DNA of 22,007 nt from a virus, in the IMG/VR virus record IMGVR_UViG_3300021090_000911, positions 1 to 22,007 of that record; one strand, 5' to 3'. Both the position numbers and the translations under genes were made by a program. Positions 499 to 9,523 of the stretch are shown here, one piece after another; the first letter of the stretch is position 1, and the number at the start of each line of letters is the position of its first letter. The notes under the pieces were generated by a model that saw nothing but the letters and a program-made list of their open reading frames with translations, was not told the DNA's origin and searched no databases.

Positions 499-539
499 TG
501 CCCCGGGTAGGAATCGAACCCACATCTAAGCCTTGTGAG
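499..539 (-). other. Attachment site: 3' half of tRNA-Val(CAC)
   Basis: Read on the minus strand, this is the 3' part of a tRNA. It has an anticodon loop CTCACAA, a 3' anticodon-stem strand GGCTT, a short variable region, T-stem GTGGG/CCTAC with T-loop TTCGATT, 3' acceptor strand CCGGGGC and discriminator A. The loop pattern CTNACAA is that of valine tRNAs, with anticodon CAC. The expected 5' anticodon-stem strand (AAGCC) is absent, so this is a fragment, not a working gene. It lies at the 3' end of a tyrosine integrase, whose stop codon falls inside it. This is the usual arrangement of an att core that restores the tRNA 3' end on integration. The matching site is not in this window. Confidence 0.75.
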
Positions 540-1395
540 TGCCAAACTTGAGTAAATTCTTTACGGGTAGATAGGGACGGATGATGTCCAACTGAAGAGT
601 AGCAGTGTAATGCTCGTATTCTTCCTGTGTTTTCCATCGCCCGCCGATCTGACCGGCACGCGAGGAAGCACCAAAGATCGCCGTCAACGTAGCATACGAA
701 GATCGCAGATCATGAGGGGAGACTTGAAAACCAACAACTTTACTCAGCCGCTTGAAGATACATTCCATCCCATTCCCAGTGAGCGCCCTGCCGGTCTTGA
801 GAGAGACGAAGAGTCTACCAACGCCGTCGGCTGGCTTTCGATATAACAACCAGGACTGAAGAATAGCCGCAGTTTCAGCGGAGAATGCACCATAGCCCCA
901 CCGACCACCTTTACACAATGCCTTTGCAGTATTGGCATAAAAATCCACATCCCCAAGCTGCATAGAGCAAAGCTCCCCCCTGCGAAAGCCGGTATCTAGA
1001 CCAAAAGCCACGATCGCCAGGTCCCGCGAGCCGCCAGCCGAAAGGGAATTGAATGACGACAGGACCCGCAAAGCTCTATCACTATTGAGCACGCGCCGTG
1101 GAGTCGGCTTGATCCGAGGGATCCTAGCCGTGAGAGCCGCATGATCATCCCCATAACGCCAGCGTAAAAACTTTCGCGCACAGTGGAGAGCAACGTTCTG
1201 CTGCGAGTTCCCCCACCCGGGCAGTTCAACAAACGCAACCAAGCCCGCCGCGTCCAAATGGTCCAGGTGAGAAAGAGCGACCAGCAACACAAGGACGCGG
1301 CGATAGCTTTCCTTCGTCGAAGCCGAGTAAGGAAACGACGACAGGAAATTCTCAATATCCCTACCAGGCGCGAAGCGCCAGTACTGTGTATTCAC
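526..1395 (-). CDS. int: Tyrosine recombinase / phage integrase
   Basis: This is a site-specific recombinase that integrates the element into the tRNA target. From the GTG at 1395 it has 289 residues: an N-terminal SAM-like core-binding region (about 10-100) and a catalytic domain. Catalytic residues visible are R138 (TGFRRGEL), K162 (KGGRWGY), H228 and R231 (HDLR), W254 and the likely nucleophile Y263 (EEYEHY). The GTG start is chosen because GGAGGT (1401-1406, complement) lies just upstream. The frame stays open back to 1584, but the extra 63 residues are Cys/Trp-rich and poorly integrase-like. The last codons lie inside the tRNA-derived att site, so integration also preserves the end of the gene. 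Confidence 0.92.
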   Translation of the reverse strand: MNTQYWRFAPGRDIENFLSSFPYSASTKESYRRVLVLLVALSHLDHLDAAGLVAFVELPGWGNSQQNVALHCARKFLRWRYGDDHAALTARIPRIKPTPRRVLNSDRALRVLSSFNSLSAGGSRDLAIVAFGLDTGFRRGELCSMQLGDVDFYANTAKALCKGGRWGYGAFSAETAAILQSWLLYRKPADGVGRLFVSLKTGRALTGNGMECIFKRLSKVVGFQVSPHDLRSSYATLTAIFGASSRAGQIGGRWKTQEEYEHYTATLQLDIIRPYLPVKNLLKFGTHKA

Positions 1396-1536
1396 GATGT
1401 ACCTCCATGGTTTTGTCAGGGCAGACATCCCCCGCCCTGTTGAAACACCCGGCAATCGGGACATTGCCGGGAGCGAAGAACACCAGCCAGGCAGGAGAAT
1501 CCTCACGAGAAGCCACGCCCAGCCGGTGTCATCCAT

Positions 1537-1545
1537 ATTATAGCA
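1537..1545 (-). promoter_or_regulatory. Extended -10 promoter candidate for integrase
   Basis: The minus strand reads TGCTATAAT here, a perfect TATAAT with the TG extension that can compensate for a missing -35 box. The expected -35 position falls within the long inverted repeat at 1554-1590. It would give an untranslated leader of about 135 bases before the integrase GTG. Confidence 0.4.
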
Positions 1546-1553
1546 AGATCTAT

Positions 1554-1590
1554 AAAAATGTGCGTGCGTGAAGTGCGCACGCACATTTTT
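1554..1590. terminator. Perfect 15-bp inverted repeat with T-runs on both strands
   Basis: AAAAATGTGCGTGCG (1554-1568) and CGCACGCACATTTTT (1576-1590) are perfectly complementary around a 7-base loop. Five T residues end the arm on each strand, so it looks like a bidirectional intrinsic terminator. It sits between divergent genes, just upstream of the integrase -10 and the 1611 gene. It may therefore act as an attenuator or as an operator bound by a dimeric regulator. Confidence 0.65.
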
Positions 1591-5964: not shown

Positions 5965-6452
5965 GCGCATATGTGAAATGTGCAGGATGTAGTGAGATAG
6001 TCGAAATCCCTGATGAATTATCAGGACGATCTGCCGAGCAGATCGAGAGCGGCAATATAACAGACCCATCGAATCCGTATTACTGCGATGCTTGCGAACG
6101 CAAGGCCACATCCAACATGGAGCGAGCCATCGACATGACAGGTGGAAGCGCCGACACACTCGCCGAAGCCCTGGACCAGTGGGAGCGTGAGCGCGAGGCG
6201 CTTGTAGAACTATTCGACGAGAACGAGGCATTCACAATTTCATTCCGCATCTACGATCTCACAATGACCCTCGCCGAGAAGATCATCAACACCGTGGAGA
6301 TCGACGCCGCGATGTTCATGACCCAAAAGAGCCGAGATAAAATCGCCCAATTCCGAAAGCAGGTACAAGACCTGCAAGCACGCAGAGCCAACGACAGAGA
6401 GATCGTCGTTGACGCGACCAACAGGAGAAACTCCAATGTCAAAACTACATGA
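5961..6452 (+). CDS. Zinc-ribbon plus coiled-coil protein
   Basis: This 163-residue protein starts at ATG 5961 with GGAGGAG (5949-5955) upstream. The N-terminus holds a zinc ribbon: C-x2-C (VKCAGCSE) near residue 7 and C-x2-C (YYCDACERK) near residue 42. The rest is largely helical and charged (ALDQWEREREALVELFDENE and FRKQVQDLQARRANDRE), consistent with a coiled coil. It could bind nucleic acid or scaffold a complex. It overlaps its downstream neighbour by 17 bases. No named family is recognised. Confidence 0.65.
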   Translation: MSAYVKCAGCSEIVEIPDELSGRSAEQIESGNITDPSNPYYCDACERKATSNMERAIDMTGGSADTLAEALDQWEREREALVELFDENEAFTISFRIYDLTMTLAEKIINTVEIDAAMFMTQKSRDKIAQFRKQVQDLQARRANDREIVVDATNRRNSNVKTT

Positions 6453-6735
6453 AATTCTCGAAGACCAGATCGCCAGCGCGCGCAAGAGCGCCGGGCAGAA
6501 GATCATTCGCAAGCTCAAGAACGGACTCAGGATCGAGATCGTCTATGTCAACACCGTGGTGTACCTCACGCTCACGCGGGACAATCAATTCCCATCAACC
6601 CAGGAATGGCAAACAGTGCTCAGGCACTTGCCGTTCGCCGTGCCACACACAGAGCCAGCTACGGACAGGAGCGGACCACGCCACACCCTGACCGCGCGCC
6701 TGCCGATTACAGCCGAGCAGATCAAGTTCGGATGA
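6436..6735 (+). CDS. Hypothetical protein
   Basis: This 99-residue protein starts at ATG 6436 with AGGAG (6423-6427) upstream. In-frame sequence back to 6409 lies within the previous gene and lacks a signal. A helical basic N-terminus (ILEDQIASARKSAGQKIIRK) leads into beta-like strands (IEIVYVNTVVYLTLTR) and an extended C-terminus. Near the end, the coding sequence includes a 19-base stretch repeated at 8432, beyond the inserted cassette region. No family is recognised. Confidence 0.6.
   Translation: MSKLHEILEDQIASARKSAGQKIIRKLKNGLRIEIVYVNTVVYLTLTRDNQFPSTQEWQTVLRHLPFAVPHTEPATDRSGPRHTLTARLPITAEQIKFG
6641..6659 (+). repeat. 19-bp direct repeat (copy 1)
   Basis: TGCCACACACAGAGCCAGC here is identical to 8432-8450. 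The pair brackets the 1.8-kb stretch that includes the foreign-looking cassette genes, as expected if a segment was duplicated when material was inserted or if recombination used short homology. Confidence 0.6.
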
Positions 6736-6741
6736 ACCATA

Positions 6742-7038
6742 ATGAGCGCCGAAACCACGCCAATAAAATCTGAACCCGACGAGACGCCGATCACAGAGAA
6801 GACGCGCGCCATCCTTGCAGCGATCGACCGCATCGATAAAAAAGTCGATACACTAATTGCCGAACGACAGGCGTGGAAAGCGGCGCTCTATCGCATCCTG
6901 AAAGAGTCAATATCGTTGCTGTTTTCGGAGAAACAAAACGGCAAAAACAACCGCCAGCCAACGGGCGAGGGTGCGGATGATTTGCCAGGCAAATCACGAA
7001 CGACGCCGCACATCCGGGCAAGGAGAAGTCATGAATGA
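6742..7038 (+). CDS. Hypothetical coiled-coil protein
   Basis: This 98-residue protein has an acidic, proline-containing N-terminus. A helical coiled-coil-like stretch follows (TEKTRAILAAIDRIDKKVDT, then LIAERQAWKAALYRILKESI), then a hydrophilic tail. The tail codons include the inverted repeat GATTTGC/GCAAATC (6979-6995), also found after the capsid gene. Its last eight bases overlap the first cassette-like gene, so its present C-terminus may have been altered by the insertion. No family is recognised. Confidence 0.55.
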   Translation: MSAETTPIKSEPDETPITEKTRAILAAIDRIDKKVDTLIAERQAWKAALYRILKESISLLFSEKQNGKNNRQPTGEGADDLPGKSRTTPHIRARRSHE

Positions 7039-7381
7039 TAGATATATCCTAAAAGACGGGGTTCCCGTTCCTGAGCCTGATTTGTTCGCATGGGTGAAAT
7101 GGCTAGAGGATGATGACCATCGGCGTGTCGCTTCCACTGAGGTGGGTGCTGCGCGTATCTCTACCGTGTTCCTCGGCTTAGATCATGCTTTCGGTGGTGG
7201 CACGCCGGTGCTTTTTGAAACAATGGTTTTCGGTGGCGAGCTTGATGAGCATCAGCAACGGTATTACACGCTCGAGGAAGCCATGATAGGGCATGAACGC
7301 ATCGTAGCTGTGGTGCGGGCTAACACAGCTGCGCCTGACGGGTTGCCACGTGCCGCTAAATCAGATGATCCTGAAAAATAG
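7031..7381 (+). CDS. Conserved hypothetical protein, first cassette-like gene
   Basis: This 116-residue protein starts at ATG 7031 with AGGAG (7021-7025) upstream. It resembles a widespread small protein seen in phages and bacterial genomes, with the pattern VSTVFLGLDH...GGG.PVLFETMVFGG and TLEEAMIGHERIVA. Here it reads ARISTVFLGLDHAFGGGTPV and LFETMVFGGELDEHQQRYYT. Its function is unknown to me. Base use is G/T-rich, unlike the A/C-rich coding strand of neighbouring phage genes, pointing to recent transfer. The stop is followed by the first attC-like repeat. Confidence 0.7.
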   Translation: MNDRYILKDGVPVPEPDLFAWVKWLEDDDHRRVASTEVGAARISTVFLGLDHAFGGGTPVLFETMVFGGELDEHQQRYYTLEEAMIGHERIVAVVRANTAAPDGLPRAAKSDDPEK

Positions 7382-7438
7382 TTTATCCCGCTTCGTTGCC
7401 CGGTCCCCGCAACCTGCAGGTAACGCGCCCCGTTAGGC
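7379..7438 (+). repeat. attC-like cassette boundary (copy 1)
   Basis: After the stop codon come a hairpin GTTGC...GCAAC and then TAACG-N5-CGTTA (7421-7435), running on into GTTAGGC (7432-7438). That matches the integron core consensus GTTRRRY. The same TAACG-N5-CG(TTA) module occurs at 7829 and, decayed, at 8328. This is a sequence resemblance only; the upstream partner core is not clear here. Confidence 0.5.
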
Positions 7439-7462
7439 GTTCCATTGCCAGCAAGGAGAATC

Positions 7463-7831
7463 ATGAGTGATTTTTTCAAGTTCATATGTTCGGGTTGCAA
7501 AATGGATACGGTCTCAGAGTTTGCCTTGTCTGGCAAGCCGCATCTCGATTGCCCGCAAGGTTACGGCGAATGGCAAGAGTACAAAGAGATTGATTATTCT
7601 GCCTACACTGTCACTGTCCATGTCTCGCCGGATTGCCAGCCTGAGACACTGCAAGCCCTGGGTGAAATGATGAAACTTCTTATTCAGCAAGTCGAGAAAG
7701 ATCCATCGCAGAGAAGCCGCCTAACACAGCGTGTACCCGACTTGGGATGGGTGTGCGCCGAATGTGAGTTTACTAATCTGGAAGTTGATTCCGTTTGTCA
7801 ACTTTGTTTCACAGCCCGCCCAAGCGGGTAA
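7463..7831 (+). CDS. RanBP2-type zinc-finger protein, cassette-like gene
   Basis: This 122-residue protein starts at ATG 7463 with AAGGAG (7452-7457) upstream. The N-terminus has a zinc-ribbon start (FICSGCKMD, C9 and C12, with a possible partner at C30). The C-terminus is a textbook RanBP2-type finger W-x-C-x2-C-x3-N-x6-C-x2-C with W96, C98, C101, N105, C112 and C115 (WVCAECEFTN). Such fingers bind single-stranded RNA or ubiquitin in eukaryotes; the bacterial roles are less clear. The middle (TVTVHVSPDC, then LQALGEMMKLLIQQVEKD) is a strand plus helix. The stop TAA forms part of the attC-like repeat. Base composition is foreign to the phage neighbours. Confidence 0.7.
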   Translation: MSDFFKFICSGCKMDTVSEFALSGKPHLDCPQGYGEWQEYKEIDYSAYTVTVHVSPDCQPETLQALGEMMKLLIQQVEKDPSQRSRLTQRVPDLGWVCAECEFTNLEVDSVCQLCFTARPSG

Positions 7832-7847
7832 CGCCAGCCGTTAGCCA
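7829..7847 (+). repeat. attC-like cassette boundary (copy 2)
   Basis: TAACGCCAGCCGTTA (7829-7843) is an inverted repeat with a 5-base centre that includes the stop codon of the preceding gene. It is preceded by a small hairpin CCCGC...GCGGG (7816-7828). The right part GTTAGCC (7841-7847) is the exact complement of GGCTAAC at 8211-8217. The two could therefore be the right and left cores of the same kind of site. Confidence 0.55.
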
Positions 7848-7852
7848 GACCC

Positions 7853-8038
7853 ATGAAATACGATAATAATCACGTTCGGGATTTCGAAGGCGCAAAAGGC
7901 ACATGTGAGGTCTGCGGACTACAAATCACGCTTGATCGGCAAGACACACCCACGCATCCAATAAGCAATGTGTGGATTGTCAAATGCCCTCATTGCAAAA
8001 ATGCTGTGCGTTGTTGTCAGTCTGACAAAGGAGAATAA
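7853..8038 (+). CDS. Small double C-x2-C zinc-binding protein, cassette-like gene
   Basis: This 61-residue protein has C18-x2-C21 (GTCEVCGLQI) and C45-x2-C48 (VKCPHCKN), a zinc-ribbon layout, plus an extra pair C54-C55. The ATG lies five bases after the repeat core, with no clear ribosome-binding site, so translation may be coupled to the previous gene. No named family is recognised. Composition matches the other cassette-like genes rather than the phage backbone. Confidence 0.55.
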   Translation: MKYDNNHVRDFEGAKGTCEVCGLQITLDRQDTPTHPISNVWIVKCPHCKNAVRCCQSDKGE

Positions 8039-8042
8039 TACT

Positions 8043-8216
8043 ATGCCATTTATGCTTGGGAAACCATTTGCAGGAACATCGGGGTACCACGCAGAACCAA
8101 AAAGAATCGTCTGTCCGCATTGTAGTTCGCGGATTTTGATACTCGTCAAGAATAAAAAAACAGGCAAGAAAGACGCTTGCCCGGCGTGTGGCAAATCAAT
8201 CAAAAAGGCGGGCTAA
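8043..8216 (+). CDS. Small zinc-ribbon protein, last cassette-like gene
   Basis: This 57-residue protein starts at ATG 8043, with AAAGGAG (8028-8034) about eight bases upstream. It has C24-x2-C27 (IVCPHCSS) and C46-x2-C49 (DACPACGKS) joined by a basic loop (VKNKKTGKKD), a classic zinc-ribbon. Its stop codon lies inside GGCTAAC, the left core of the long attC-like element. A longer in-frame start at 7968 would overlap the previous gene and lacks a ribosome-binding site. The function is unknown; zinc-ribbons often bind nucleic acid. Confidence 0.6.
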   Translation: MPFMLGKPFAGTSGYHAEPKRIVCPHCSSRILILVKNKKTGKKDACPACGKSIKKAG

Positions 8217-8340
8217 CAAAGCGTGCAGTTGACGTGGGGTACGATCTCGCTACATGGGCGACATCCGACCGGAGCCGATTTGGCACAGAGGCGCGTACTA
8301 AGCCCACCCCACCCCACCCCACGCAACTAACGCCAGCCGC
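8211..8340 (+). repeat. Long attC-like hairpin element with decayed right core
   Basis: The left core GGCTAAC (8211-8217) is followed by AAAGCGTGCAG. Then GTTGACGTGGGG (8228-8239) pairs with CCCCACGCAAC (8317-8327) apart from one bulged A; extrahelical bases are a hallmark of attC sites. The right end continues TAACGCCAGCCG (8328-8339), then CTCC instead of the expected TTAGCC. A run of CCCCA units (about 8305-8321) forms part of the right arm. 8217-8511 carries no gene: it holds this element, a short inverted repeat CCGTCT/AGACGG, the 19-bp repeat and a terminator. Confidence 0.6.
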
Positions 8341-8431
8341 TCCTCTGGACAAATAGGATGATCGCATGTAATATACCGCAGACAGATTGAGCCGTCTCCG
8401 CGCACAAAAGCCCCAAGACGGTATAGGCGAC

Positions 8432-8450
8432 TGCCACACACAGAGCCAGC
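8432..8450 (+). repeat. 19-bp direct repeat (copy 2)
   Basis: TGCCACACACAGAGCCAGC is identical to 6641-6659 and runs directly into the terminator stem. The first copy is coding and this one is not. The duplication therefore probably marks the far edge of the inserted or rearranged segment. Confidence 0.6.
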
Positions 8451-8489
8451 CGCGTTCGAAGACCCGCAAGGTCCGAACGCGGCTTTTTT
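8449..8489 (+). terminator. Strong intrinsic terminator
   Basis: GCCGCGTTCG (8449-8458) pairs perfectly with CGAACGCGGC (8474-8483). An inner stem GACC/GGTC surrounds CGCAA, and six T residues follow immediately. It should end transcription of the early and cassette genes before the packaging operon. Confidence 0.9.
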
Positions 8490-8511
8490 ATTTTTCCAAG
8501 GAGACCCATAC

Positions 8512-8745
8512 ATGCCAGAGAAACAACCAGCAGAGGTATCCCGACCCGTGGTCCTATACGTTGAAAAGGTGGAAACCAATCCGGACATAGACGCATATCT
8601 CGACACCCGCAGACTCTCAGTCATTGACATCGAGATCGACACGGTTATGGCAAAACAGATCCTGGACCACCTTCGCGAACGGACAGACGGGCGGCTCGTT
8701 GGTTCAATCCGGCTCAGGTTCACGGGGAGACTGATACACCTGTGA
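8512..8745 (+). CDS. Hypothetical protein, first gene of the packaging operon
   Basis: This 77-residue protein starts at ATG 8512 with AAGGAG (8498-8503) upstream. It has beta strands at the start (RPVVLYVEKVET), a helix in the middle (MAKQILDHLRERTDG) and a terminal strand (GSIRLRFTGRLIHL). Its stop overlaps the next start as GTGA. No family is recognised. It is the first gene after the strong terminator, so a promoter may lie in 8485-8511, though none is clear. Confidence 0.6.
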   Translation: MPEKQPAEVSRPVVLYVEKVETNPDIDAYLDTRRLSVIDIEIDTVMAKQILDHLRERTDGRLVGSIRLRFTGRLIHL

Positions 8746-9104
8746 CAGACACGCCCACCTCTAAAAAAGTATTTCTCGCAGGACTTGCAAGGGAGGAACA
8801 GTTAGGCACACTATGGGACATGTGCCAATCTATTCGCTCAGAGCAGGCATCGGACCGCAAAGAGCGGATCAACACACGCAACGAAATGACCTATCTGAAA
8901 GGCGAGGTTGACGGTATTGGCCGTCGCAATGGTAGAAAGCAAGTCACCCTCACTACATCCGAAAAAATCGACGTCGCAATCACGAAGCGCAGTGTTGTAT
9001 GGATTTGGTATCGAGACAGAGTATTGGCACCCACACTCGCAGCCGTTCACACTATCGTCATTATGGCGATCCTGTACCTTTCGTTCGGAGGAAAACTACC
9101 ATGA
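8742..9104 (+). CDS. Membrane-anchored coiled-coil protein (GTG start)
   Basis: This 120-residue protein starts at a GTG coupled to the preceding stop. It has a hydrophilic, charged helical region (about 15-65, REEQLGTLWDMCQSIRSEQA, then RKERINTRNEMTYLKGE). One membrane helix lies near the C-terminus (about 94-115, LAPTLAAVHTIVIMAILYLS). This tail-anchored layout occurs in phage lysis accessory proteins and in hypothetical proteins next to terminases, but no family is identified. The end overlaps the next ATG as ATGA. Confidence 0.6.
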   Translation: MTDTPTSKKVFLAGLAREEQLGTLWDMCQSIRSEQASDRKERINTRNEMTYLKGEVDGIGRRNGRKQVTLTTSEKIDVAITKRSVVWIWYRDRVLAPTLAAVHTIVIMAILYLSFGGKLP

Positions 9105-9523
9105 CACCACAAGCAGAGACCGGCAGAAAACAAGGCGGACAGCCAGGAAACAAAAATGCCATGCGCCATGGCTTCTACGCGAAGAGATTCACCGACGAGG
9201 AAGCAGAGCGACTGGACAAACAAGGTCCAACAGACGTACAGGCTGAAATCGCATTGCTCCGCGTTTGCCTGGACAAACTCTACAACCAGCTTTATTTCGA
9301 GCCAACCTATTTCAATATCAAGAACAAGGACCGGGAGGACGCCACGGCGCAATCCAACATCCGGGATGACCATTACCTCAAGCAACTCAACACCCTTGCC
9401 ATTATGAGTCAGGCAGTTGCCACACTCGCGCGCACAGACCATCTAATACACGGCAAAGCCGGAGGCGTCCAGGACGACATCCTGCGCGCGCTGGAAGAGA
9501 TACGGCTGGAGATGGGACTGTGA
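9101..9523 (+). CDS. terS: Probable terminase small subunit
   Basis: This 140-residue protein starts at ATG 9101 with GGAGG (9088-9092, CGGAGGAAAA) upstream. The N-terminal motif QGGQPGNKNAMRHGFYAKRF is the usual opening of many phage small terminases and related DNA-binding proteins. The rest is helical (DVQAEIALLRVCLDKLYNQL, and DDILRALEEIRLEMGL at the end). Small terminases recognise the packaging site and control the large subunit. The position directly before a repeat-rich gap and the large terminase supports the role. The family call rests on motif and context, not on a search. Confidence 0.7.
   Translation: MTPQAETGRKQGGQPGNKNAMRHGFYAKRFTDEEAERLDKQGPTDVQAEIALLRVCLDKLYNQLYFEPTYFNIKNKDREDATAQSNIRDDHYLKQLNTLAIMSQAVATLARTDHLIHGKAGGVQDDILRALEEIRLEMGL

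Follow-up and report, generated by a model that had tools for sequence, protein, structure and literature searches.

What is the block of short genes and hairpins at 7031–8340 of the viral DNA analysed here, and what do its repeats encode? The stretch of 22,007 nucleotides, hereafter the window, is the complete 22-kb IMG/VR virus record IMGVR_UViG_3300021090_000911 and belongs to an uncultured tailed phage, whose genes include those for a tyrosine integrase, a terminase, a portal protein, and a capsid. An earlier note, made from the letters alone, had described the block as an integron-like cassette array in the phage early region, and this description is supported by a covariance model that matches all copies of the repeat (Table 1). 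The phage is probably temperate and its host probably a member of the Anaerolineae (Chloroflexota). The attC type and the relatives of its large terminase, TerL (33–45% identity), present in 50 of the 396 genomes of Anaerolineae, the sole class searched, make such hosts likely, as support rather than proof. No tRNA was found in the window, and named phages gave no DNA match to window positions 6400–9200.

Judged by sequence and predicted structure, the repeats of the window are attC sites. Every copy is matched by the covariance model R1, the next-best match in the window having an E-value of 0.16. The attC core boxes (YAAC and GTTRRRY) are both present in attC1 and attC2, while attC3 has R'' alone. 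Paired L'' and L' arms, an extrahelical base and a variable loop are seen in the R1 alignments, in the fold of attC2 and in the covariation of the family. The attC2 stem reads CCCG-a-CTTGGG / CCCAAGCGGG, and its bottom strand takes an attC-like fold (z = -3.6) whose stability was equalled by 0 of 200 shuffles; attC3 was also examined by folding. The boxes named in the earlier note were all found, namely the right cores GTTAGGC at 7432–7438 and GTTAGCC at 7840–7846, the left core GGCTAAC of the last element at 8211–8217 with its bulged A, and the mutated right core of the last copy, where GCTCC replaces GTTRRRY; the stop codons of genes 2 and 4 also lie within the repeats as it had stated. The loss or replacement of R' in attC3 may reflect decay, or else insertion at a non-canonical site, which would have left the last cassette joined to phage DNA at this point. 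The note had further placed a TAACG-N5-CGTTA module or a longer hairpin close to each of four genes; two exact modules exist, at 7421–7435 and 7829–7843, but there are three attC, and genes 3 and 4 form one cassette. With one mismatch permitted, this motif is expected 0.33 times per shuffled window and two occurrences were reached in 3 of 100 shuffles, so that the motif alone is only mildly unlikely, and the identification is decisive because the full structure is matched by the covariance model. A core-box scanner using RYYYAAC overlooked the window sites, because their R'' is GGCTAAC, and was dropped in favour of the model. An attC-like vestige at 6946–6965 was rejected since the same stretch in the related contig L009 is phage backbone, the exact 16-mer TAACGCCAGCCGTTAG occurred in 29 IMG/VR stretches that were mostly chance or unrelated matches on inspection, and an Rfam scan gave no match.

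Table 1. Coordinates of the phage genes, cassette genes, attC sites, and slot border in the window.
Feature	Position	Strand	Remarks
Phage tyrosine integrase	526..1584	-	PF00589
Left flanking phage gene	6742..7038	+	homologues flank the slot in L009, L012, L013, L242
Cassette 1 gene (gene 1), 116 aa	7031..7381	+	attC1 codes the last ~20 residues
attC1	7318..7438	+	R'' GGCTAAC, R' GTTAGGC; model R1 53.3 bits, E = 5e-15
Cassette 2 gene (gene 2), 122 aa	7463..7831	+	C-terminus attC2-coded; stop TAA 7829-7831 in L' box of attC2
attC2	7719..7846	+	R'' GCCTAAC, R' GTTAGCC; model R1 74.2 bits, E = 2e-21
RanBP2-like zinc finger DLGWVCAECEFTNLEVDSVCQLCFTARPSG, coding part of attC2 loop and L' arm	7737..7828	+	
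Cassette 3 first ORF (gene 3), 61 aa, Cys-rich	7853..8038	+	
Cassette 3 second ORF (gene 4), 57 aa, zinc-ribbon-like	8043..8216	+	stop TAA 8214-8216 inside attC3 R''
attC3	8211..8343	+	R'' GGCTAAC; model R1 45.2 bits, E = 1.7e-12
Right slot border	8367..8489	+	promoter-like TGTAATATACC, AGGCGACTGCC motif, intrinsic terminator; conserved
Right flanking phage gene	8512..8745	+	homologues in relatives

Model R1 was built from 50 bacterial sites, mostly from Anaerolineales (Chloroflexota) and none of them viral. It contains 23 pairs with 92.7% of cells paired; both sides had changed in 153 cells, compared with 61 in shuffles, and pairing falls sharply once the partners are slid. When one genome per species from 84,980 bacterial and archaeal species was scanned for TAACNNNGCGTGCANNNGAC-N60..90-TAACGCNNNCCGTTRG, at least 119 stretches matched, and most of those named among the matches listed were metagenome-assembled genomes of Anaerolineales or other Chloroflexota. 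In seven genomes the arrays lie on what we infer to be the same contig as an integron integrase that scores above the TIGR02249 cut-off. The repeats are found again in chromosomal arrays that carry IntI, and also in other phages; a lack of recurrence in other contexts would, according to the earlier note, have counted against its reading. In seven viral contigs (L021, L026, L027, L031, L033, L034, and L042) model R1 had no match at E <= 0.01. Anaerolineales-type arrays are also present in L082 and L146, in contigs binned as Bathyarchaeota, through contamination or transfer.

The three attC delimit three cassettes with four ORFs. The sole tyrosine recombinase of the window, the phage integrase, was considered as an IntI and rejected: it has no TIGR02249 match at E<=1, and an alignment with chromosomal IntI shows that the IntI-specific patch is absent. 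The array of this record, itself a fragment, is therefore a CALIN and not a complete integron, there being no intI in the window.

The sites overlap the genes, attC1 starting within gene 1 and attC2 within gene 2. The family of gene 1 extends to named phages, plasmids (Nostoc, Aeromonas, Pseudomonas, and others), and IMG/VR, and gene 1 is absent from the 396 Anaerolineae genomes. Homology with ten IMG/VR relatives stops at residue 88–98 and R'' of attC1 starts at residue 96; attC1 therefore appears to have been added at the end of a gene from mobile elements. Gene 2 has one weak match in the same genomes (E = 4e-4), and its N-terminus resembles an ORF lying between two attC of the viral contig L193 (54% over 39 aa). 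Its last 37 residues, including GWVCAECEFTNLEVDSVCQLC, are encoded by attC2, whose L' box supplies the terminating TAA. This tail is 81% identical over 31 aa to one encoded by the attC of a related phage, L251, with substitutions of 4/3/7 by codon position, only a slight third-position excess, and it contains the RanBP2-type pattern W-x-C-x2-C ... N ... C-x2-C. The L251 homologue scores E = 0.0085 against PF00641, under the cut-off, and the gene 2 protein of the window has no match to that family. Gene 3 starts 21 nt past the gene 2 stop with no clear Shine-Dalgarno sequence, and gene 4 reaches E about 8e-4, under the cut-off, with PF09723/PF23548. PADLOC had no match for any of the four cassette proteins. 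The foreign composition that had been ascribed to all four genes holds for genes 1 and 2, whose AT skews of -0.08 and -0.04 lie outside the 0.18 to 0.49 of backbone genes, and holds only weakly for genes 3 and 4 (0.18 and 0.23); the skew of 7031–8340 as a whole is 0.05, compared with 0.273 +/- 0.056 (minimum 0.15) in backbone windows.

Coding by attC extends well beyond this window, and many phage-borne attC of this type statistically encode the C-terminus of the cassette protein. The longest cassette ORF was followed in 249 distinct phage-borne attC preceded by sufficient sequence. It terminates around the L' box in 134 of them, for which loop shuffles predict 64; the same model identified 332 chromosomal attC, a control set dominated by one canonical loop type, and in 12 of these the ORF ends there. 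In 91 of the 134 phage-borne cases the stop codon coincides with the TAA of TAAC. A zinc-finger-like motif lies in the attC part at 21 sites from 17 loci (24 by a looser count), with 0.3 in shuffles, none in chromosomal attC, and 7 such endings among 1026 other ORFs of those loci. Codon-phase composition is seen in coding loops only (G 37/22/23%), although selecting open frames itself somewhat biases this measure, and non-coding phage loops are nearly flat. Pairs of coding loops, picked by protein similarity, differ at 100/70/160 sites by codon position. In the loops of L187 and L174 the finger stays in frame with the L' stop, and the cassettes enter in different frames. The upstream parts of the zinc-tailed proteins vary and are mostly of no known kind. 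One of them, from L199, joins a Dam DNA methyltransferase-like part to a zinc ribbon tail (Pfam E-values 3e-5 and 1.5e-4, below cut-offs), and the zinc motifs in general score under Pfam cut-offs. Expression, zinc binding, and function of the attC-coded tails are predictions. Other recurrent tail families of coding loops include LQ..LFADVP.AT, QALSTPE, and AAGGESADENSES (for example L169:6816-6941, L182:1081-1205, and L296:1388-1513).

An ordinary CALIN from a host chromosome could account for the array, the ORF–attC overlaps then being incidental stop-free frames of the loops that carry no protein meaning. The attC type does match Anaerolineales chromosomes, and about a quarter of shuffled loops keep a frame open by chance. 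Read-through, however, occurs twice as often as shuffles predict and 15 times as often as in chromosomes, the zinc tails are about 70 times their expectation and 12 times as frequent as in the other ORFs of these loci, and the coding loops have codon-phase composition, which together leave this explanation unlikely.

Coding attC appear to occur in several phage lineages, as judged from terminases and tail genes. The contigs of the terminase family are phage, and the other contigs with coding arrays have PHROG terminases of different families (L037, L180, and L199), tape-measure proteins (L184 and L194), RecT (L169), replication genes (L187), or a serine-type integrase of family phrog_95 (L174 and L307). 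L212 (contig G035) and L213 (contig G051), both viral, have IntI-like genes 26–34% identical to chromosomal IntI that adjoin attC arrays and keep the IntI-specific patch; these are possible phage-borne integrons. G034 and G055, with canonical arrays and chromosomal-type IntI, may be chromosomal flanks.

The position of the array within the phage genome is conserved. A relative of the window terminase is encoded by 59 viral contigs, and 28 of the 31 attC in the loci analysed from this set lie 0–4.5 kb upstream of TerL, all on the TerL strand, a count that omits four opposite-strand attC near the left end of the L017 contig (L049). The slot contains attC in 13 of 28 related contigs having at least 2.5 kb of upstream sequence; L006/L007 and L259/L269 look near-duplicate, so about 11 of 26 independent slots are occupied. 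The insert of the window is limited at about 6980–7030 on the left and at 8343–8366 on the right. The right-border element is common to at least seven relatives, L004, L009, L012, L013, L235, L238, and L242; it includes a terminator hairpin at 8449–8483 with a T run at 8484–8489, and this conserved non-coding element may represent a promoter followed by a leader or small RNA. The earlier note had suggested looking for a related phage without the insert, and several exist: the slot is empty in L012, L013, and L242, where left and right borders are joined directly, and L235 and L238 have one small unrelated ORF each (66 aa in L238). An array occupies the slot of L009, other relatives hold different cassettes, and none of the four window genes is complete in any relative, which is the opposite of the four-gene synteny in all relatives that the earlier note had named as a sign against its reading. 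With its conserved flanks and variable or absent content, the slot is a phage hotspot; it separates the early region from the terminase operon, and the array in it is oriented in the direction of transcription.

Other positions were also noted in these contigs. In L235, at 6853–7260, a single cassette with attC is flanked by two diverged copies of the start of the coding sequence of the gene 6437 homologue, and further attC at 1236–1366 of L009 and 4090–4181 of L018, upstream of a helix-turn-helix gene near the integrase, mark a possible second array position. An exact 19-bp direct repeat, TGCCACACACAGAGCCAGC, occurs at 6641–6659 and 8432–8450 of the window, one copy being intragenic and the other in the conserved leader.

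Two further explanations were weighed. An assembly chimera, or host chromosome mistaken for phage, might be suspected from the metagenomic origin of the record and from the composition shift at the insert borders, but it is very improbable, as both flanks carry genes of the same phage, the same slot is occupied in the same orientation by arrays in separate contigs from different samples, and phage cassettes are shorter than those of host chromosomes, with a median attC spacing of 344–474 bp versus 848 bp. That the moron genes are native to the phage and the hairpins between them act as terminators or other regulatory stem-loops, as their location at gene ends of the phage early region and the real terminator that follows at 8449–8489 might suggest, is the least credible reading, given a sequence and structure matching IntI-associated attC down to the bulged base and both core boxes, and boxes that stay constant while the intervening genes differ between phages.

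We therefore consider it probable that the insert is a three-cassette CALIN in the hotspot of a temperate phage, whose attC doubles as coding sequence for a protein C-terminus. The cassettes would most likely have been inserted by an IntI supplied in trans, encoded either on the host chromosome or on another element resident in the cell; the same enzyme could also excise them through recombination of the folded attC bottom strand. The missing R' of attC3 and the lack of a recognisable GTTRRRY at the left border mean that the junctions do not prove insertion by IntI. Transcription would proceed rightward as far as the terminator. In this phage and many other phage lineages, as the counts above show, the cassettes are small and a cassette ORF crosses the R'' and L'' arms, enters the loop and stops around the L' box, often at TAA; the loop thus encodes the C-terminus, which is zinc-finger-like in about one case in twelve. 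Translation of gene 2 across attC2 would open the hairpin and may aid gene 3. Compaction, and passing ribosomes that prevent the hairpin from obstructing translation of the cassette downstream, are likely reasons for a coding attC. Beyond this window, we lean somewhat towards a general cassette class in which one stretch serves both as the folded recombination site and as the coding sequence of a transferable C-terminal domain, in many cases a zinc ribbon; proteins would gain this tail by being cassetted. Phages of several lineages, of which some have a divergent IntI themselves (G035 and G051), would keep arrays of small cassettes as a moving pool of accessory proteins.

Integrons and CALINs in phage genomes have been described before, in 21 phages, and a phage attC was recombined by IntI1 in an assay (Qi et al. 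2023, PMC9892861). The present array resembles those, which are integrase-less attC arrays with unidirectional cassettes in tailed phages; the available text of that paper discusses no Chloroflexota phages and describes neither an array slot conserved within a phage family nor a coding attC. The sedentary chromosomal integrons of Anaerolineales and other Chloroflexota share the attC boxes and stem with the window, as captured by model R1, and adjoin IntI. They differ in their long T-rich non-coding loops, with cassettes about 850 bp apart, and in ORFs that end before or in R'', unlike the phage coding attC. In class 1 integrons, attC hairpins block translation and short ORFs in attI1/attC relieve this block (Jacquier et al. 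2009, as reviewed in PMC8876359). In both systems, translation that runs inside the recombination site is taken to help the cassette that follows; the ORF described there is separate and short, whereas here the main cassette ORF ends in the attC with a domain-sized tail. The ACID definition treats attC as non-coding, with an ORF overlap of at most 15 bp (PMC2674596). Within the open-access literature (subscription papers lie outside this scope), no attC with a zinc finger or a coding overlap was found described. The phage CALIN is thus already known, and the protein-coding attC is what looks new.

If this reading is true, phage attC hold two codes, a hairpin for single-strand recombination and the end of a protein, and cassette annotation under the 15-bp overlap rule would truncate such proteins. 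It would also account for the existence of very small cassettes, and the effect of translation on attC folding becomes testable. Phages of a mostly uncultured phylum would then reserve a slot for cassettes in their genomes and may ferry cassettes between hosts.
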